DNA from: Vibrio japonicus
GTDB taxonomy: Bacteria; Pseudomonadota; Gammaproteobacteria; Enterobacterales; Vibrionaceae
NCBI RefSeq assembly: GCF_024582835.1
Contig: NZ_CP102097.1
Span: 868,001-932,000 of the forward strand
Length of the DNA: 64,000 bases
Direction: 5' to 3'
Notes under the pieces: model-generated
Told to the model about the DNA's origin: nothing
The model's input: the letters and a program-made list of their open reading frames with translations, nothing else
The model's database searches: none
Shown: one piece after another, positions 28,551 through 35,266 of the stretch
How positions within the stretch are numbered: the stretch's first letter is position 1
Layout of the letters: every line of letters begins with the position of its first letter
Translations under genes and position numbers: made by a program

Positions 28551-28593
28551 AAATACGAAATTTGTTTAGAGTTCAAAGGAAATGTTTTTTCAT

Positions 28594-29136
28594 ATGATCA
28601 CATCAGCGCCTTGGGTGATGTATCCCGAAATCGGTGAGACCCCAAGTAAAAAATGGAACTTTCGCGAACCTAGCAGAGCGGATGGAAGCAAGATTTTTGG
28701 TTTGATTGCAGACTGCCCGCCATTGGATGTGAACTCTTCGTACTGCAATTTTCTTCAAGCAGCGCATTTCAGTGACACTTGCATCATTGCAGAGCAAGAC
28801 AAAGACATTGCGGGTTTTATCTCAAGTTACAAAAAACCCAGCGATCCTAATGTGTTGTTCGTATGGCAAGTGGCTGTCTCTCCTCGCTATCGCGGTAAAG
28901 GCTTGGCTTACAAAATGCTCGACCAGTTGTTACAGCGCAAATCGCTGCAAGGTGTCGATGCAGTAGAAACCACCATCACGAAAGACAATGACGCGTCTTG
29001 GTCATTGTTCAAAAAACTCGATGCCAATAACGGCAATGGTGGTGAAGTCAGTACTTTCCTAGACGAAGAAGCACATTTCAAAGGCACGCACGATACCGAG
29101 TATTTGTATCGCATCCCTTTAAATAATCCTCAATAA
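28594..29136 (+). CDS. ectA: Diaminobutyrate acetyltransferase
   Basis: This 180-residue GNAT-fold enzyme acetylates L-2,4-diaminobutyrate, the second step of ectoine synthesis. The start pattern ITSAPWVMYPEIGETPSKKWNFREPSRADGSKIF, the acetyl-CoA loop VAVSPRYRGKGLAYKM and ETTITKDNDASWSLFKKLD are typical of EctA. ATG 28594 fits the family start (MITSAPWV). The in-frame ATG 28582 lies only one base after AAAGGA and is less likely. It is the first gene of ectABC-ask. Confidence 0.95.
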   Translation: MITSAPWVMYPEIGETPSKKWNFREPSRADGSKIFGLIADCPPLDVNSSYCNFLQAAHFSDTCIIAEQDKDIAGFISSYKKPSDPNVLFVWQVAVSPRYRGKGLAYKMLDQLLQRKSLQGVDAVETTITKDNDASWSLFKKLDANNGNGGEVSTFLDEEAHFKGTHDTEYLYRIPLNNPQ

Positions 29137-29160
29137 ACAGGAGCCATAACGGTCTTTCAC

Positions 29161-30426
29161 ATGGATATTTTTAAAAAACGAGAATCCCAAGTACGTTCAT
29201 ACTCAAACAGTTTTCCGGTGGTATTCAAAAAAGCAAAAGGTTGCTGGCTAGAAACTGATCAAGGCGAGCGCTATCTGGACTTTCTTGCCGGTGCCGGATC
29301 GCTTAACTATGGGCACAACAACCCAGTCCTTAAGCAAGCACTATTGGAATACATTGAAGCCGACGGCATCACACACGGATTGGATATGCACTCCGACGCA
29401 AAAGCGATGTTTCTCAAGTCGCTGCAGCGTTACATCCTTGTCCCAAGAGATCTTGATTACAAAGTCCAGTTTACTGGCCCAACGGGCACCAACGCCGTCG
29501 AGGCTGCGCTGAAATTGGCGCGTAAAGTAACGGGTCGCAGCAACATCGTTGCTTTCACCAACGGTTTCCACGGTTGTACCGCGGGCGCATTGGCTGCTAC
29601 GGGTAACCAACATCACCGTGGTGGTAACGGTGCACCACTTAGCAACGTAACTCGTATTCCATTTGACGGTTACGCGAACATTGATGGTTTGGCATTTTTT
29701 GAAACCATGCTCTCTGATAACTCAAGCGGTATGGATAAGCCAGCGGCGGTTCTGCTGGAAACGGTTCAGGGTGAAGGCGGCTTGAACGTGGCGTCAAATG
29801 AATGGTTACAGCGCTTGAGCAAACTTTGTAAAGCGCACGACATTTTACTGATTGTTGATGATATTCAAGCAGGTTGTGGTCGTACTGGTACCTTCTTCAG
29901 CTTCGAGCCATCGGGCATCAAACCAGACATGGTGACGCTATCGAAATCGATCGGTGGTTACGGCTTGCCAATGGCCATTGTTCTGCTGAAACCTGAACTG
30001 GATAAGTGGAAACCGGGCGAGCACAACGGTACGTTTCGTGGCAACAACCACGCCTTCGTGACTGCCGCGAAAGCACTTGAAATCTATTGGGCAAACGACC
30101 AGTTCGCAACGCACATTGGTCAATGTTCAGAGATGGTTTCGAACACGATTCAGCGTTTGGTTAAACGCTACCCAGAGCTGTTTGTACAGCAGAAAGGTCG
30201 CGGCATGATGATAGGTATCGAATGTCGCAATGGCGATCTGTCGGATGAGATTGCTAAGACTTGTTTTGAACTGGGTATGGTGATTGAAACCGCAGGCCCA
30301 GACGATGAGATTGTGAAGTTCTTCTGTCCACTGACGATTACCGAGCAAGAACTCGAACAAGGCCTGAGCATTTTTGAAAATGCAGTAGAAAGCGTTGCGA
30401 CAAAATATTTTAAAAAAGCATCATAA
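29161..30426 (+). CDS. ectB: Diaminobutyrate-2-oxoglutarate transaminase
   Basis: This 421-residue class III aminotransferase converts aspartate semialdehyde and glutamate to diaminobutyrate, the first committed ectoine step. PLP-binding Lys262 is in [12 protein letters not shown], and the Asp pair is in [13 protein letters not shown] (233-234). [16 protein letters not shown] is the phosphate-binding region. Length fits EctB. It lies 24 bases after ectA. Confidence 0.96.
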
Positions 30427-30439
30427 CAAGGAAGAATAC

Positions 30440-30826
30440 ATGATTGTTAGAACACTAGCTGAGTGTCGAAACAGTGAACGTCGAGTAGTGGCAGAAACTT
30501 GGGAAAGCGTCCGTATGTTGTTGAAAGATGACAAAATGGGCTTTTCTTTCCACATTACGACCATCTTTGAAAACACCGAAACACATATCCACTACCAAAA
30601 CCACCTAGAGTCGGTTTACTGCATGAGTGGCGAAGGGGAAATCGAAGTGGTTGGCGGCGAAACGTACCCAATCAAACCGGGGACGCTATACATTCTCGAT
30701 AAGCATGACGAGCATTATTTACGTGCTTACAAAGGCAAAGAAATGGTCATGGCTTGTGTCTTTAATCCACCGATCACTGGCGCAGAAGTGCACGATGAAA
30801 ACGGTGTCTACCCTTTGGTTGACTAA
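30440..30826 (+). CDS. ectC: Ectoine synthase
   Basis: This 128-residue cupin closes N-acetyl-diaminobutyrate into ectoine. The metal and substrate motifs are visible as [43 protein letters not shown] and [20 protein letters not shown]. The start is ATG 30440 behind AAGGAAG. A longer frame from 30395 runs back into ectB and does not fit the family. No ectD hydroxylase follows, so hydroxyectoine is not expected from this locus. Confidence 0.96.
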
Positions 30827-30922
30827 CCGAGCGGCGCAAGTGGGGCATCGCCCCGCTATCTCAAATCACCCTCAATCCCATGTCATTACATACGTGTCAT
30901 TAAATAATCGAGGTTATCTAAT

Positions 30923-32344
30923 ATGACTTATACCGTAGAAAAAATCGGCGGTACTTCTATGACAGCATTTGATGCTGTTCTCGAAAACATCATCCTACGT
31001 CCACAAGATCGCTATAAGCGTGCGTTTGTGGTGTCGGCATACGGCGGTATTACCGACGCGCTACTGGAATGCAAAAAAACCAGTAAGCCGGGTGTGTACC
31101 AGTTAATTGCCAAACGGGATGAAAAATGGCGAGAGGCTCTGGATTATGTTGAGAAACGCATGTTGTTGACCAACGAGAATATTTTCGCGGATCCAATGAA
31201 TCGCATGCGAGCAGACCAGTTTATTCGTTCGCGCATTTCTGAAGCGAAAAATTGTGTCACAAATATTATGGAAACGTGCCAATACGGCCAGTTTTCACTG
31301 CGTCATTACCTGCCGCAAATTCGTGAGTTTTTATCCTCACTGGGTGAAGTCCACAGCGCCTTTAACACTGCGCTAAAACTGAAAAATATGGGCATCAACG
31401 CCAAGTTTGTGGACTTGTCCGGTTGGGATTCGCAAACCCCCAAAAGCTTGGATGAGACCATCAAAGATGCTTTTGAAGGCATTAACATTGACGAAGAACT
31501 GCCAATCGTCACCGGTTACGCGTATTGTAAAGAAGGCCTGATGACCACCTATGACCGCGGCTACAGTGAAATGACATTCAGCCGAATTGCATCAATCACT
31601 AACGCGGATTTGGCGATCATCCACAAAGAGTATCACTTGAGCTCGGCAGATCCTCGCGTGGTTGGCCCTGAGAAAGTGCTACCGATTGGTCATACTAACT
31701 ATGACGTCGCTGACCAGTTAGCAAACTTGGGTATGGAAGCGATTCACCCGAATGCCGCGGCTGGCCTACGCGAAAGCGGTATTGAGCTGCAAATCAAGAA
31801 TACTTTTGAGCCAGAGCATCAGGGCACATTAATCTCAAGTCAGTACAAACCAGATGAAGACCGCGTTGAGATCATCGCAGGCAAAGAGAAAGTATTTGCT
31901 TTGCACTTGTTCGATCAAGCGATGGTTGGCCAGGTGGATAACGTAAGCTGTGAGTTGATGGAATTCATCGCAGACGCTCGGGTGAGCCTGATTGGTAAAG
32001 AGATGAATGCGAACTCGATTACCTACTATCTTGGTGGCAGCACAGAGAGCCTAAACAAAGTGTTGTACAAAGCGGAAAAACGCTATCCGAAAGCGTCGAT
32101 TAAAGGGCGCATGGTGGCGCTGATTTCTGTGATTGGCTCGCAGATTGATACCAACAAAGCGTTGGCGCAAGGCGTGTTGGCACTGATGAACAAGGGGATT
32201 ACCCCTGCCGCGTTGCACTCATCTATGCGCAATGTCAACGTGCAGTTTGTGGTCAGCGACAAAGAATACCAGAAAGCGATTTGTGCGCTGCACGAGGAGT
32301 TGTTCCCCAAGCAATCTCATCTGGCAATGGGTGAGGTGGCGTAG
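30923..32344 (+). CDS. ask: Ectoine-pathway aspartokinase
   Basis: This 473-residue aspartokinase begins TVEKIGGTSM, the kinase signature, and carries two C-terminal ACT-type repeats (from about residue 330). Ask_Ect enzymes are the specialised form linked to ectABC that supplies aspartyl phosphate free of lysine/threonine feedback. Linkage 96 bases after ectC on the same strand supports this role. A strong terminator follows. Confidence 0.93.
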   Translation: MTYTVEKIGGTSMTAFDAVLENIILRPQDRYKRAFVVSAYGGITDALLECKKTSKPGVYQLIAKRDEKWREALDYVEKRMLLTNENIFADPMNRMRADQFIRSRISEAKNCVTNIMETCQYGQFSLRHYLPQIREFLSSLGEVHSAFNTALKLKNMGINAKFVDLSGWDSQTPKSLDETIKDAFEGINIDEELPIVTGYAYCKEGLMTTYDRGYSEMTFSRIASITNADLAIIHKEYHLSSADPRVVGPEKVLPIGHTNYDVADQLANLGMEAIHPNAAAGLRESGIELQIKNTFEPEHQGTLISSQYKPDEDRVEIIAGKEKVFALHLFDQAMVGQVDNVSCELMEFIADARVSLIGKEMNANSITYYLGGSTESLNKVLYKAEKRYPKASIKGRMVALISVIGSQIDTNKALAQGVLALMNKGITPAALHSSMRNVNVQFVVSDKEYQKAICALHEELFPKQSHLAMGEVA

Positions 32345-32434: not shown

Positions 32435-33355
32435 TTAGATGTCGCGGTTTTCCGCAAACTTTTCTAAACCTAGAACCAGTGCAATGGCACACAGCATCAA
32501 TACGATTGCAATACCCAGTTGTGCGGGGTGCGAGGTAACTGCTTCGAAATCAAATGGAGATAGGTTCTCTTGCAACAGTGGTACTTGCTCACCTTTCGAG
32601 TTTGTGCGCCAAGTTAGCGTTTCTTTCCAAGGCCAAATCTTAGGCAATGTACCTAGCATCAAACCCGTTAAGAACACCAAGGTAAAATCGCGGAAGTGCC
32701 GCAGTAGCCATGACAGCAGGTGCGAAAATGTCAGTAGCCCCACCACGCAGCCGGAAAGAAATAGGGCCAGAATTGGGATGTCAAATGACTTCACAGCGCC
32801 CAAGACAGGGGTGTACATGCCGATTAGCAGGAGAATAAAACTTCCTGAAATACCAGGAAGGATCATGGCGCAAATCGCGATAGAGCCAGCGAGTAAAACG
32901 TTCAGGCTAGTTGGTTCCATGTGCAATGGCTTCAGCATGGTAATGCTATAAGCAAACACGACACCCAGTAACAGGAACACAAAGCGGCTTACATTACGTC
33001 GCTCGACTTGTTTGAGCATGTGGAAAACGGAAACCAGAATAAGCCCGAAGAAGAAGGACCATAATGGGATTGGGTGAGTGACCAATAACCATGAGATGAG
33101 TTTTGCGAGTGTCGCAATACTGAAAAAAATGCCGCCAAACAATGAGATTAAGAAAAATCCGTTGATATGGTTGAAGGCTGCTTTAACCCCTCCTTTTTTC
33201 CAGATCCCCAACAGACTTGGATTTACTCGTCGGATGCTTTCTAGAAGCGTGTCATAGATACCAGTAATAAACGCTATTGTACCGCCTGATACACCGGGCA
33301 CTACGTCTGCAGCACCCATCGCTATTCCTTTGAGAAACGTCGTAAAATAATTCAT
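32435..33355 (-). CDS. popT: DUF368 polyprenyl-phosphate translocase (PopT)
   Basis: This 306-residue integral membrane protein has about eight to nine hydrophobic segments and the DUF368 repeats GIAMGAADVVPGVSGGTIAFITGIYD and AICAMILPGISGSFILLLIGMY. DUF368 proteins, including V. cholerae VCA0040, have been reported to recycle undecaprenyl phosphate across the inner membrane and to matter at alkaline pH. The gene diverges from the qrr gene, and its neighbours gltS and plzD match the VCA0040-VCA0042 region. ATG 33355 gives the normal N-terminus. Confidence 0.85.
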   Translation of the reverse strand: MNYFTTFLKGIAMGAADVVPGVSGGTIAFITGIYDTLLESIRRVNPSLLGIWKKGGVKAAFNHINGFFLISLFGGIFFSIATLAKLISWLLVTHPIPLWSFFFGLILVSVFHMLKQVERRNVSRFVFLLLGVVFAYSITMLKPLHMEPTSLNVLLAGSIAICAMILPGISGSFILLLIGMYTPVLGAVKSFDIPILALFLSGCVVGLLTFSHLLSWLLRHFRDFTLVFLTGLMLGTLPKIWPWKETLTWRTNSKGEQVPLLQENLSPFDFEAVTSHPAQLGIAIVLMLCAIALVLGLEKFAENRDI

Positions 33356-33466
33356 GCTAACTAATGGATAAATTTAGGTGGTACGAGTATATCGACTCTT
33401 TAGTTTAAAAAGTACCGCAAAAGCTAAGTTGACATTCTTGTTTATAAGAATCTGGTTTTATATTAA

Positions 33467-33504
33467 TTTGCAAATTGATCGCAAAATGCAATTTCATTTT
33501 GCAA
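33467..33504. promoter_or_regulatory. LuxO-type activator sites upstream of qrr
   Basis: Two sites match the LuxO consensus TTGCAWWWTGCAA at 12 of 13 positions: TCGCAAAATGCAA at 33479-33491 and TTTCATTTTGCAA at 33492-33504. A further TTTGCAAA lies at 33467-33474. They stand 60-85 bases before the sigma-54 promoter, the right range for a bacterial enhancer. Confidence 0.8.
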
Positions 33505-33563
33505 TTTGGGAATTGAATAATGGCTAAAGTGGCGTTTCTTTAATCGAAAATGGCCATAAAAAG

Positions 33564-33580
33564 TTGGCACGGATGCTGCA
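33564..33580 (+). promoter_or_regulatory. Sigma-54 promoter of qrr
   Basis: TTGGCACGGATGCTGCA has the invariant GG (33566-33567) and GC (33578-33579) ten bases apart. The -24/-12 geometry puts transcription start at about 33591, exactly where the Qrr sequence begins. Confidence 0.9.
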
Positions 33581-33590
33581 TTATAGATAT

Positions 33591-33697
33591 CGACCCTTAT
33601 TAAGCCGAGGGTCACCTAGCCAACTGACGTTGTTAGTGAATGCTTTTTGTTCACACAAAATATAAGCCAATCGCCCTTTGCGATTGGCTATTTTTTT
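33591..33697 (+). ncRNA. qrr: Qrr quorum-sensing small RNA
   Basis: This RNA of about 107 bases starts with a stem formed by GACCCTT and AGGGTC. It continues with CTAGCCAACTGACGTTGTTA and GTGAA, the conserved Qrr core that base-pairs with luxR/hapR-type mRNAs with help from Hfq. It ends in a strong terminator: AGCCAATCGC at 33665-33674 with GCGATTGGCT at 33680-33689, followed by seven T. A sigma-54 promoter and LuxO-type sites lie upstream. At low cell density phospho-LuxO would switch it on and so reduce the master quorum regulator. It is not beside luxO, so it is one of the dispersed qrr copies and its number cannot be assigned here. Confidence 0.93.
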
Positions 33698-34039
33698 GTC
33701 TTGGATTTTGTAAATTCCCATTAACAAACGTAATTTCAGTAACTTATGGTATTTACCTAGGTGAACCCAGCACACGTTTTTAGTGTCACAACTCGACAAC
33801 ACGTGAAAAATCCATTAATAATGTCCGCCTTCTAAGCTCATGCCAGTATTTAATTCTGGTTATTCTGTTGAAATGGAGTGGGATCGCCCGCTGTAGAGAG
33901 GAAATTTTTCAATAGACAAATTTTACTAATCGCACAGGTAAGTCGTTGGTTGATACCACGCTAACTCGTCCTGTCGCTGAGCCGAAATCGGGCTCTTAAC
34001 TCATTAGGGAAGATGAGTGACGCATAATAAAGAGGTTAT
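33698..34039 (+). promoter_or_regulatory. gltS upstream region with structured leader
   Basis: This gap holds no convincing gene. Close to gltS lie a stem-loop at 33979-33995 (GAG-CCGA with TCGG-CTC, one bulge) and another formed by ACTCAT 33999-34004 and ATGAGT 34013-34018, ending about 20 bases before the start codon. ACAGG and CCTGT farther up can also pair. An 18-codon open frame (33840-33896, MPVFNSGYSVEMEWDRPL) lies upstream without a clear ribosome site. Together these look like a regulated 5' leader, but I recognise no known riboswitch. Confidence 0.35.
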
Positions 34040-35266
34040 ATGAATCAGATAATTTCAGTTGGACCGCAAGAATCTTTCATGGTCGCCATCGGCGTTCTAT
34101 TCTTAGGTCACTTTATCAACTCGAAGCTCCCTATTCTTAAGAAATTTAACATTCCAGAGCCTATTGTGGGTGGTTTGATCGTCGCTATCGGCATTACGAT
34201 GATGCATTTTAATGGGATCGATTTAGAATTCTCGTTGCCATTGCAAAATGTGTTTATGTTGATGTTTTTTAGCACGGTGGGTTTGGCTGCAAACTATACC
34301 CAGCTAATGAAAGGTGGGGCGAAAGTGTTCCTTTTTCTTGCTGTGGCATCGTTTTATATCATCATCCAAAACGGAGTAGGGATTTCACTCGCAAGCGCGC
34401 TAGGTCTCGATCCGTTGATGGGTTTGATTGCAGGTTCCATTACACTGTCAGGTGGGCATGGCACGGGTGCCGCATGGTCTAATACATTTTCAGAAACCTA
34501 CGGTTTAACCAACACTCTTGAAATTGCCATGGCATCGGCGACATTCGGTTTGATCATAGGCGGTATTATTGGTAGCCCTGTCGCTCAGAAACTGATTGAT
34601 AAAAATAACTTTGAATCAGTCTATGGCCGTGGCACTCAAACTCACCAGAAGTTTCCAGAAGTCATTACTTACAACGAGTATGAAGAGGATAAAGTCACCG
34701 CTAAGAAGGTGATTGAAGTGCTGTTCATTCTGCTTATCTGTGTGACAGGCGCGAAGTATTTGGAGCAGTTGGTGAGCAGCTTTGAGATTAGCTGGTTGAT
34801 GATCCCTGACTTTGTTTATGCTCTGTTCATTGGTGTGTTTATCACTAATATCTTAGAAGTCACTAAGGTACATAAAGTGAATGCGGAAACCGTCGATATT
34901 CTTGGTACCGTATCCTTATCGCTGTTTTTGGCAATGGCGTTAATGAGCCTGAAACTGTGGAATATCTTTGATTTGGCGATTCCATTTTTGGTTATTCTGG
35001 CGGTTCAATCGGTGGTGCTTGGTGTATTCGCTTACTTTGTGACTTTTAAGGTGATGGGCTCTAACTACGACGCAGCGGTCATTGCGGGTGGGCACTGTGG
35101 CTTTGGCTTAGGTGCAACACCTACGGCCGTTATGAATATGGGCTCGTTAGTCAATAAATACGGCCCTTCTCCGCAAGCCTTTATGGTAGTGCCTATCGTT
35201 GGCGCGTTCTTTATCGATATCGTGAACCTGATTATCCTTCAGGGGTATATATCGTTTATCGGATAG
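34040..35266 (+). CDS. gltS: Sodium/glutamate symporter
   Basis: This 408-residue membrane protein has the two inverted halves of GltS, with IAGSITLSGGHGTGAAWSNTF in the first and AAVIAGGHCGFGLGATPTAVMNM in the second. These glycine-rich hairpins bind Na+ and glutamate. About ten to twelve membrane segments are seen. AAAGAGG precedes ATG 34040. A terminator follows directly. Glutamate is itself an osmolyte and a donor for ectoine synthesis, but no operon link exists. Confidence 0.93.
   Translation: MNQIISVGPQESFMVAIGVLFLGHFINSKLPILKKFNIPEPIVGGLIVAIGITMMHFNGIDLEFSLPLQNVFMLMFFSTVGLAANYTQLMKGGAKVFLFLAVASFYIIIQNGVGISLASALGLDPLMGLIAGSITLSGGHGTGAAWSNTFSETYGLTNTLEIAMASATFGLIIGGIIGSPVAQKLIDKNNFESVYGRGTQTHQKFPEVITYNEYEEDKVTAKKVIEVLFILLICVTGAKYLEQLVSSFEISWLMIPDFVYALFIGVFITNILEVTKVHKVNAETVDILGTVSLSLFLAMALMSLKLWNIFDLAIPFLVILAVQSVVLGVFAYFVTFKVMGSNYDAAVIAGGHCGFGLGATPTAVMNMGSLVNKYGPSPQAFMVVPIVGAFFIDIVNLIILQGYISFIG

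Follow-up and report, generated by a model that had tools for sequence, protein, structure and literature searches.

Qrr small RNAs are a known family in Vibrio, where they act as a low-cell-density signal, and two of their parts have been described as pairing regions, region I lying in stem-loop 1 and region II in the core (PMC3262071, in its available part). The closest described relatives of the gene reported here are the qrr2 genes of Vibrio parahaemolyticus and Vibrio harveyi. A primer sequence for V. parahaemolyticus qrr2 has been published, as have LuxR/OpaR boxes of qrr2 at -165 in V. harveyi and at -167 in V. parahaemolyticus (PMC3323551, available in part, the boxes in its Table 2), and qrr2 is given as the highest expressed of the five qrr genes of V. 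parahaemolyticus in the accessible portion of PMC11315295.

Here we describe a Qrr gene of Vibrio japonicus that lies within a 64,000-nucleotide stretch of DNA, referred to below as the window. We are highly confident that the gene encodes a qrr2-type Qrr sRNA which, as in the known family, would be driven by phosphorylated LuxO and sigma-54, repress luxR and luxO, activate aphA, and act beside three other Qrr genes of the same genome.

Identity and anatomy of the gene

The Rfam Qrr model (RF00378) matches the forward strand at 33591-33697 from end to end (all 108 model positions covered, with 111.1 bits where the gathering score is 50, and E 1.3e-20), and this is the sole Rfam match reaching the gathering score in the whole 64 kb. 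A preliminary description, made from the sequence alone, had placed a Qrr gene here, and by the covariance match its coordinates are exact to the base. The parts that it had named were also recovered: an exact copy of the core, the GACCC/GGGTC stem at the 5' end, a terminator hairpin followed by seven T, and a location between popT and gltS (Table 1). The gene folds with an energy of -35.4 kcal/mol, as compared with -18.5 +/- 3.2 for 200 shuffles (z -5.3), and a terminator scan of 33355-33760 gave two hits, which are the two strands of one hairpin, where 0.2 were expected. This is a complete, normal Qrr copy, and it most likely functions like its Qrr relatives.

Table 1. Features of the Qrr locus in window coordinates, with negative positions counted from the start of the gene, followed by the Qrr genes of the genome (G000; C1 and C2 are contigs).
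Feature	Position	Strand	Basis or flanking genes
popT (DUF368, undecaprenyl-phosphate translocase-like), divergent neighbour	32435..33355	-	PF04018, 345.4 bits
Weak LuxR/OpaR-box-like site AGTTGACATTCTTGTTTATA, -164 to -145	33427..33446	+	matrix score 8.9
LuxO-box-like site 1 TCGCAAAATGCAA, -112 to -100	33479..33491	+	one mismatch to TTGCA-N3-TGCAA
LuxO-box-like site 2 TTTCATTTTGCAA, -99 to -87	33492..33504	+	one mismatch to TTGCA-N3-TGCAA
Sigma-54 promoter TTGGCACGGATGCTGCA, -27 to -11	33564..33580	+	one mismatch to consensus; conserved in orthologues
qrr gene, 107-nt sRNA with terminator, probable qrr2 orthologue	33591..33697	+	RF00378; fold z -5.3
Stem-loop 1, contains aphA pairing region I (GACCC 33592-33596, GGGTC 33609-33613)	33591..33614	+	Rfam structure; region I per PMC3262071 (available part)
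Qrr core CTAGCCAACTGACGTTGTTA = pairing region II (luxR, luxO, aphA)	33616..33635	+	exact match; conserved in orthologues
Stem-loop 2 and A/U-rich linker, loop variable	33630..33665	+	Rfam structure, conservation
Intrinsic terminator (stem-loop 3 and seven T, 33691-33697)	33665..33697	+	Rfam structure, terminator scan
gltS (sodium/glutamate symporter), neighbour in part of genus only	34040..35266	+	PF03616, 503 bits
luxO-linked Qrr (Qrr1), 94 nt	G000:C1:821504-821597		adjoins luxO and a uvrB-like gene (uvrB named by eye)
Full-length Qrr on C2			DUF3612 regulator and LacI-type gene
Full-length Qrr on C2			mgtE and deaminase gene
Full-length Qrr on C2 (window copy)			popT and gltS

The other Qrr copies and the quorum-sensing genes of the genome

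The genome (4.24 Mb in three contigs) holds four Qrr genes, one on C1 and three on C2, the contig of the window. The gene had been described beforehand as a dispersed copy far from luxO, and the two do lie on different contigs; comparison of the four copies revealed distinct neighbours and a common promoter plan. Qrr1 resembles the window copy in its core, its terminator plan and its sigma-54 and LuxO-type sites but has a stem-loop 1, and with it a region I, that is 8 nt shorter, and so would be expected to activate aphA more weakly (judging from the available part of PMC3262071). The DUF3612- and mgtE-linked copies share full length and the same pairing regions with the window copy and differ from it in neighbours, in the terminator stem and in the spacing of upstream sites; going by primers in the accessible part of PMC3323551, which were matched by eye, the mgtE-linked copy appears to be of qrr3 type and the DUF3612-linked copy of qrr4 type. 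The neighbouring gene (luxO, popT, mgtE or the DUF3612 regulator) thus serves to distinguish many dispersed Qrr copies, which makes a copy-by-copy comparison across the genus possible.

LuxO, with an adjoining Hpt (LuxU-like) gene, Hfq and RpoN are all encoded in the genome. There is in addition a TetR-family protein, our luxR candidate, whose N-terminus we take to be LuxR-type, and an AphA-like protein (PF10400), presumably of AphA type. With the window Qrr, the inventory of quorum-sensing components in this genome is complete.

Two observations concern luxO-linked copies in other species. V. coralliilyticus ATCC BAA-450 (the genome of locus L014) has a fourth Qrr, which is 96 nt long, luxO-linked and scores 81.3 bits (L275, G101:C3:1027368-1027463); the available part of PMC11837519 reports three Qrr genes for V. 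coralliilyticus, with no hit for the Qrr1 query under an 80% length filter. The luxO-linked Qrr of V. ordalii (L271 in G103, the genome of L030) has a 5' end without the GACCC arm of the other luxO-linked copies listed.

The site across the genus

The stable neighbour of this Qrr is popT, not gltS. We surveyed 78 named gltS loci, drawn from the best 80 of 314, and found a Qrr upstream of gltS in 32; popT lay beside the Qrr in 31 of these, ending 259-429 nt upstream of the core, and the one other locus (L008) meets a contig end. No popT was found in the fetched flanks, some of them short, of the 46 gltS loci that lack a Qrr core. Of 74 entries of the popT/gltS class, counted with duplicates, 23 had popT but no gltS within the searched distance. 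popT itself is present in 226 of 227 genomes of the genus. By hand tally, a Qrr occupies the popT site in at least 41 of the 58 Qrr-bearing genomes and in at least 39 of the 43 that carry no fewer than three (exceptions G007, G008, G035 and G049; G033, at a contig end, was counted from the gltS side), these being lower bounds because they rest on the matches listed, among which the weakest do not figure. By gltS, the closest named relative is V. nereis (95%, among the best 80 of 314).

The published V. parahaemolyticus qrr2 primer, with up to one mismatch allowed, matched one genome of 227 (G229), and did so exactly; it had no exact match in a 148-genome subset. Given that in G229 it maps inside a Qrr approximately 390 nt from popT, we take the window gene to be the orthologue of qrr2, and the popT-side copy of V. 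harveyi is probably qrr2 as well. The window gene resembles Qrr2 of these two species in its popT site, intact stem-loop 1 and identical core, in having a sigma-54-like -24/-12 element, and perhaps in a LuxR/OpaR-box-like site at about -165. It differs in the bases of its loops and terminator loop and in its weaker LuxR-like box, and it is followed by gltS, whereas next to the G229 copy no gltS was found in the sequence retrieved (about 1.5 kb).

One locus (L232:2366-2871, G003:C2) has two tandem Qrr genes beside popT, with cores about 395 nt apart. In the popT-linked Qrr of V. proteolyticus (L033:5602-5627) the letters of stem-loop 1 differ, with pairing still possible, and because of these changes aphA pairing region I is probably altered in that copy. 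In the window, positions 28582-32344 hold four co-directional genes that by eye look like an ectoine cluster (ectA, ectB, ectC and aspartokinase).

The conserved divergent linkage, which is kept also where gltS is not a neighbour, is the basis of a broader idea, namely that popT and qrr2 form a functional unit in which LuxO- and LuxR-type sites in the divergent region of about 235 bases would serve both genes. If this were true, quorum sensing would also set the recycling of the undecaprenyl-phosphate carrier of the cell wall. We think it unlikely. Pairing of the Qrr with the popT upstream region was not predicted beyond background. A literature search, which did not extend to most subscription journals, turned up no publication joining DUF368 and qrr, or VCA0040 and qrr.

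Conservation of structure and the post-core loops

Among 65 popT-class Qrr genes (61 distinct rows), 94.8% of the cells of the Rfam structure are paired. In the distinct rows, two-sided changes amount to 6 cells in 3 pairs, as compared with 0.3 in shuffles, and two of the pairs with such changes are in the terminator stem, which is 99.4% paired; in stem-loop 2 the inner stem is 97.2% paired and the outer pairs 82.8%. Further pair types numbered 15, against 14.2 in shuffles, and were equalled by 107 of 500 shuffles. Slid versions of the structure pair only 21-42%, a comparison in which the tested structure is favoured, having been taken from the same family.

Conservation along the RNA was measured as mean top-residue frequency in 41 orthologues, namely non-redundant popT-class loci that had gltS within range as well and sufficient sequence upstream. 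Values were 0.96 for stem-loop 1 and 1.00 for the core (+25..+45), and 0.67, 0.70 and 0.85, respectively, for the stem-loop 2 loop, the stem-loop 3 loop and the linker. Pairing regions I and II are thus near-invariant, and the two loops vary more than any other part of the RNA.

These values bear on a suggestion in the preliminary description that the variable part after about 33641 could give the copy its own targets. The loops do differ between Qrr copies, and a comparison of 119 of 139 unique copies (those of four named classes, unclassified copies being left out) showed the popT class to be more alike within itself than to the DUF3612 and mgtE classes in the stem-loop 2 loop (0.35 vs 0.24-0.27), the linker (0.51 vs 0.34-0.37) and stem-loop 3 (0.52 vs 0.29-0.35). 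Stem-loop 3 even has class signatures, TCGC in 49 of 60 popT-class and TCAC in 23 of 35 DUF3612-class copies, these counts taking in 60 of the 65 and 35 of the 49 unique copies of the two classes. However, the signatures fall within the terminator stem, whose pairing is maintained, the likeness within a class is explicable by common descent alone, and among orthologues the loops are far more variable than stem-loop 1 and the core. The suggestion therefore gains no support, and we regard targets encoded in the loops as very improbable; copy-specific behaviour would be better sought in the promoters and in stem-loop 1.

The promoter region

The 64-kb window holds two instances of a strict sigma-54 pattern, one of them at the Qrr promoter, and the two abutting LuxO-box-like sites are two of the four such sites in the same stretch, neither being perfect. 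In the 41 orthologues, TTGGCA at -27..-22 and TGC at -14..-12 have frequencies of 0.93-1.00, TTGGC and TGC being invariant but for the first T (0.93), and several LuxO-box bases are invariant and lie in conserved blocks; conservation is lacking in the spacer at -79..-35 (0.51) and in the flank downstream of the gene (0.43).

It had also been suggested that this copy may have an expression rule of its own. This is less well supported: the sigma-54/LuxO promoter plan is common to all four Qrr copies of the genome. Differences in expression may stem from the weak LuxR-box-like site at -164, or from independence of sigma-54 as in V. parahaemolyticus qrr2. The latter is reported in the title of Tague 2022; at the window gene no sigma-70 promoter was found, the only hit being downstream (33721-33750).

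The LuxR-like site was scored with a LuxR/OpaR matrix built from 21 published boxes (Table 2 of PMC3323551, a source available in part), and its value of 8.9 compares with 13.0-20.0 for the training boxes themselves; the same scoring gave a higher value (11.7) at -236..-217, overlapping the popT start. With local base composition as background the best LuxR-like hit upstream of the gene is that at -164 (score 5.9). Among 64 popT-class upstream regions, whose species are related and thus not independent, the best hit starts at -170..-160 in 24 (shuffles: mean 3.2, maximum 9 in ten rounds) and scores of at least 7 occur in 25, as against 14.1 in shuffles. Since enrichment is stronger for the start position than for the score, the position of the site is the more telling of the two.

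The single mismatch in each LuxO box and the weakness of the LuxR-like box might be taken as signs of a decayed or silent extra copy. We consider this extremely unlikely in view of the perfect core, the full-length model match, the intact terminator, the conserved -24/-12 element and the retention of a Qrr at the popT site in the genomes tallied above.

Predicted pairing with targets

The core and stem-loop 1 would be the parts that engage the target mRNAs. For luxR, complementarity with the core extends over -31..-8 and covers the ribosome-binding site, with a predicted energy of -20.2 (background -15.8 +/- 2.7; 1.6 sd better), and stem-loop 1 together with CCUAG is predicted to pair with the aphA leader at -147..-122 with -29.3 kcal/mol against -25.2 +/- 4.2 (1.0 sd better), both backgrounds being drawn from 119 open frames, some of them spurious. 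The luxO-linked copy pairs less well with the aphA leader (-20.6 kcal/mol), and luxO comes third among 119 upstream regions for pairing with the core. Ranking by RNA duplex energy was not sharp, and a scan with long gapped duplexes was uninformative. As these energies are unexceptional, the assignment of targets rests on position and on the known mechanism.

The conserved position beside popT and the co-directional gltS might point to control of gltS or popT in cis, by a leader or other regulator, in place of a free sRNA. We give this virtually no credence, as the gene is preceded by a promoter and ends in a strong terminator some 340 bases ahead of gltS, popT in some entries lies without gltS in the searched distance (see above), and predicted pairing with the gltS (-29.7) and popT (-21.3) upstream regions is not beyond the background of -25.2 +/- 4.2.

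We favor the following scenario for the free, qrr2-type sRNA. At low cell density, phosphorylated LuxO would occupy the two upstream boxes and activate the sigma-54 promoter. The resulting RNA of about 107 nt, presumably with Hfq, would pair through its invariant core with the ribosome-binding site of luxR (hapR-type), leading to repression, and the same core would pair with and repress luxO mRNA. Stem-loop 1 and the core together would pair with the upstream leader of aphA, leading to its activation. LuxR may in turn raise expression of the window Qrr during the switch.

Qrr-like RNAs on phages and plasmids

Searching viral contigs for an exact copy of the core brought up four (L132, L133, L134 and L135), all of them Rfam Qrr matches of 62-75 bits, and in all four stem-loop 1 is not normal. 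In the two contigs for which genes were listed, the Qrr-like RNA lies directly before a lysis cassette: by PHROGs, L133 encodes a holin, an endolysin, an Rz-like spanin and a terminase, and L135 an endolysin, an integrase and a CI-like repressor, the gene adjoining the RNA in L135 having no known function, so that the cassette is recognised in full on L133 and in part on L135. Two scans for relatives yielded 85 further loci, several on the same contigs, and a promoter-like block was sought among L277-L309 (L297 was left out, its match lying inside another gene). Such a block, conserved and not sigma-54-like, is present upstream of the phage leader. In an alignment of ten distinct contigs that have it, phage vB_Alvi_H905 among them, nine of the ten leaders retain the Qrr seed CCTAGCC, while the rest of the leader is mostly variable. 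Five distinct contigs score above the Rfam threshold for Qrr, namely L132-L135 and that of L279/L284 (54.1 bits), while L280, L281, L287, L304 and vB_Alvi_H905 (L256:5001-5118) are below it.

Our reading is that temperate phages carry a short Qrr-like leader RNA with a terminator before their lysis genes and appear to have retained the Qrr seed in it. We would guess that in lysogens the leader could imitate Qrr, with silencing of luxR/hapR-type mRNA as the result. In the literature that we searched, to which most subscription journals do not belong, there was nothing on Qrr-like RNA in Vibrio phages or vB_Alvi_H905, and no phage- or plasmid-encoded Qrr was found, the available part of PMC11315295 included. 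These leaders are more novel than the window Qrr gene, and the phage and plasmid matches would carry more weight if their RNAs act on host quorum sensing.

The promoter-plus-seed pattern of the phages also occurs in two of the 227 Vibrio genomes, at L393 (G054:C3:4641-4693) and L394 (G021:C4:1166-1216), which are possibly prophages or phage-plasmids. On plasmids, Qrr genes with an intact stem-loop 1 and scores of 94-95 bits precede umuD in V. vulnificus pFORC54 (L136:6000-6103) and in V. navarrensis (L137:5000-5101), and another plasmid-borne hit, in V. cidicii (H9, CP035920), comes from blastn alone. By eye, the pFORC54 gene has a sigma-54-like promoter and a LuxO-like box.
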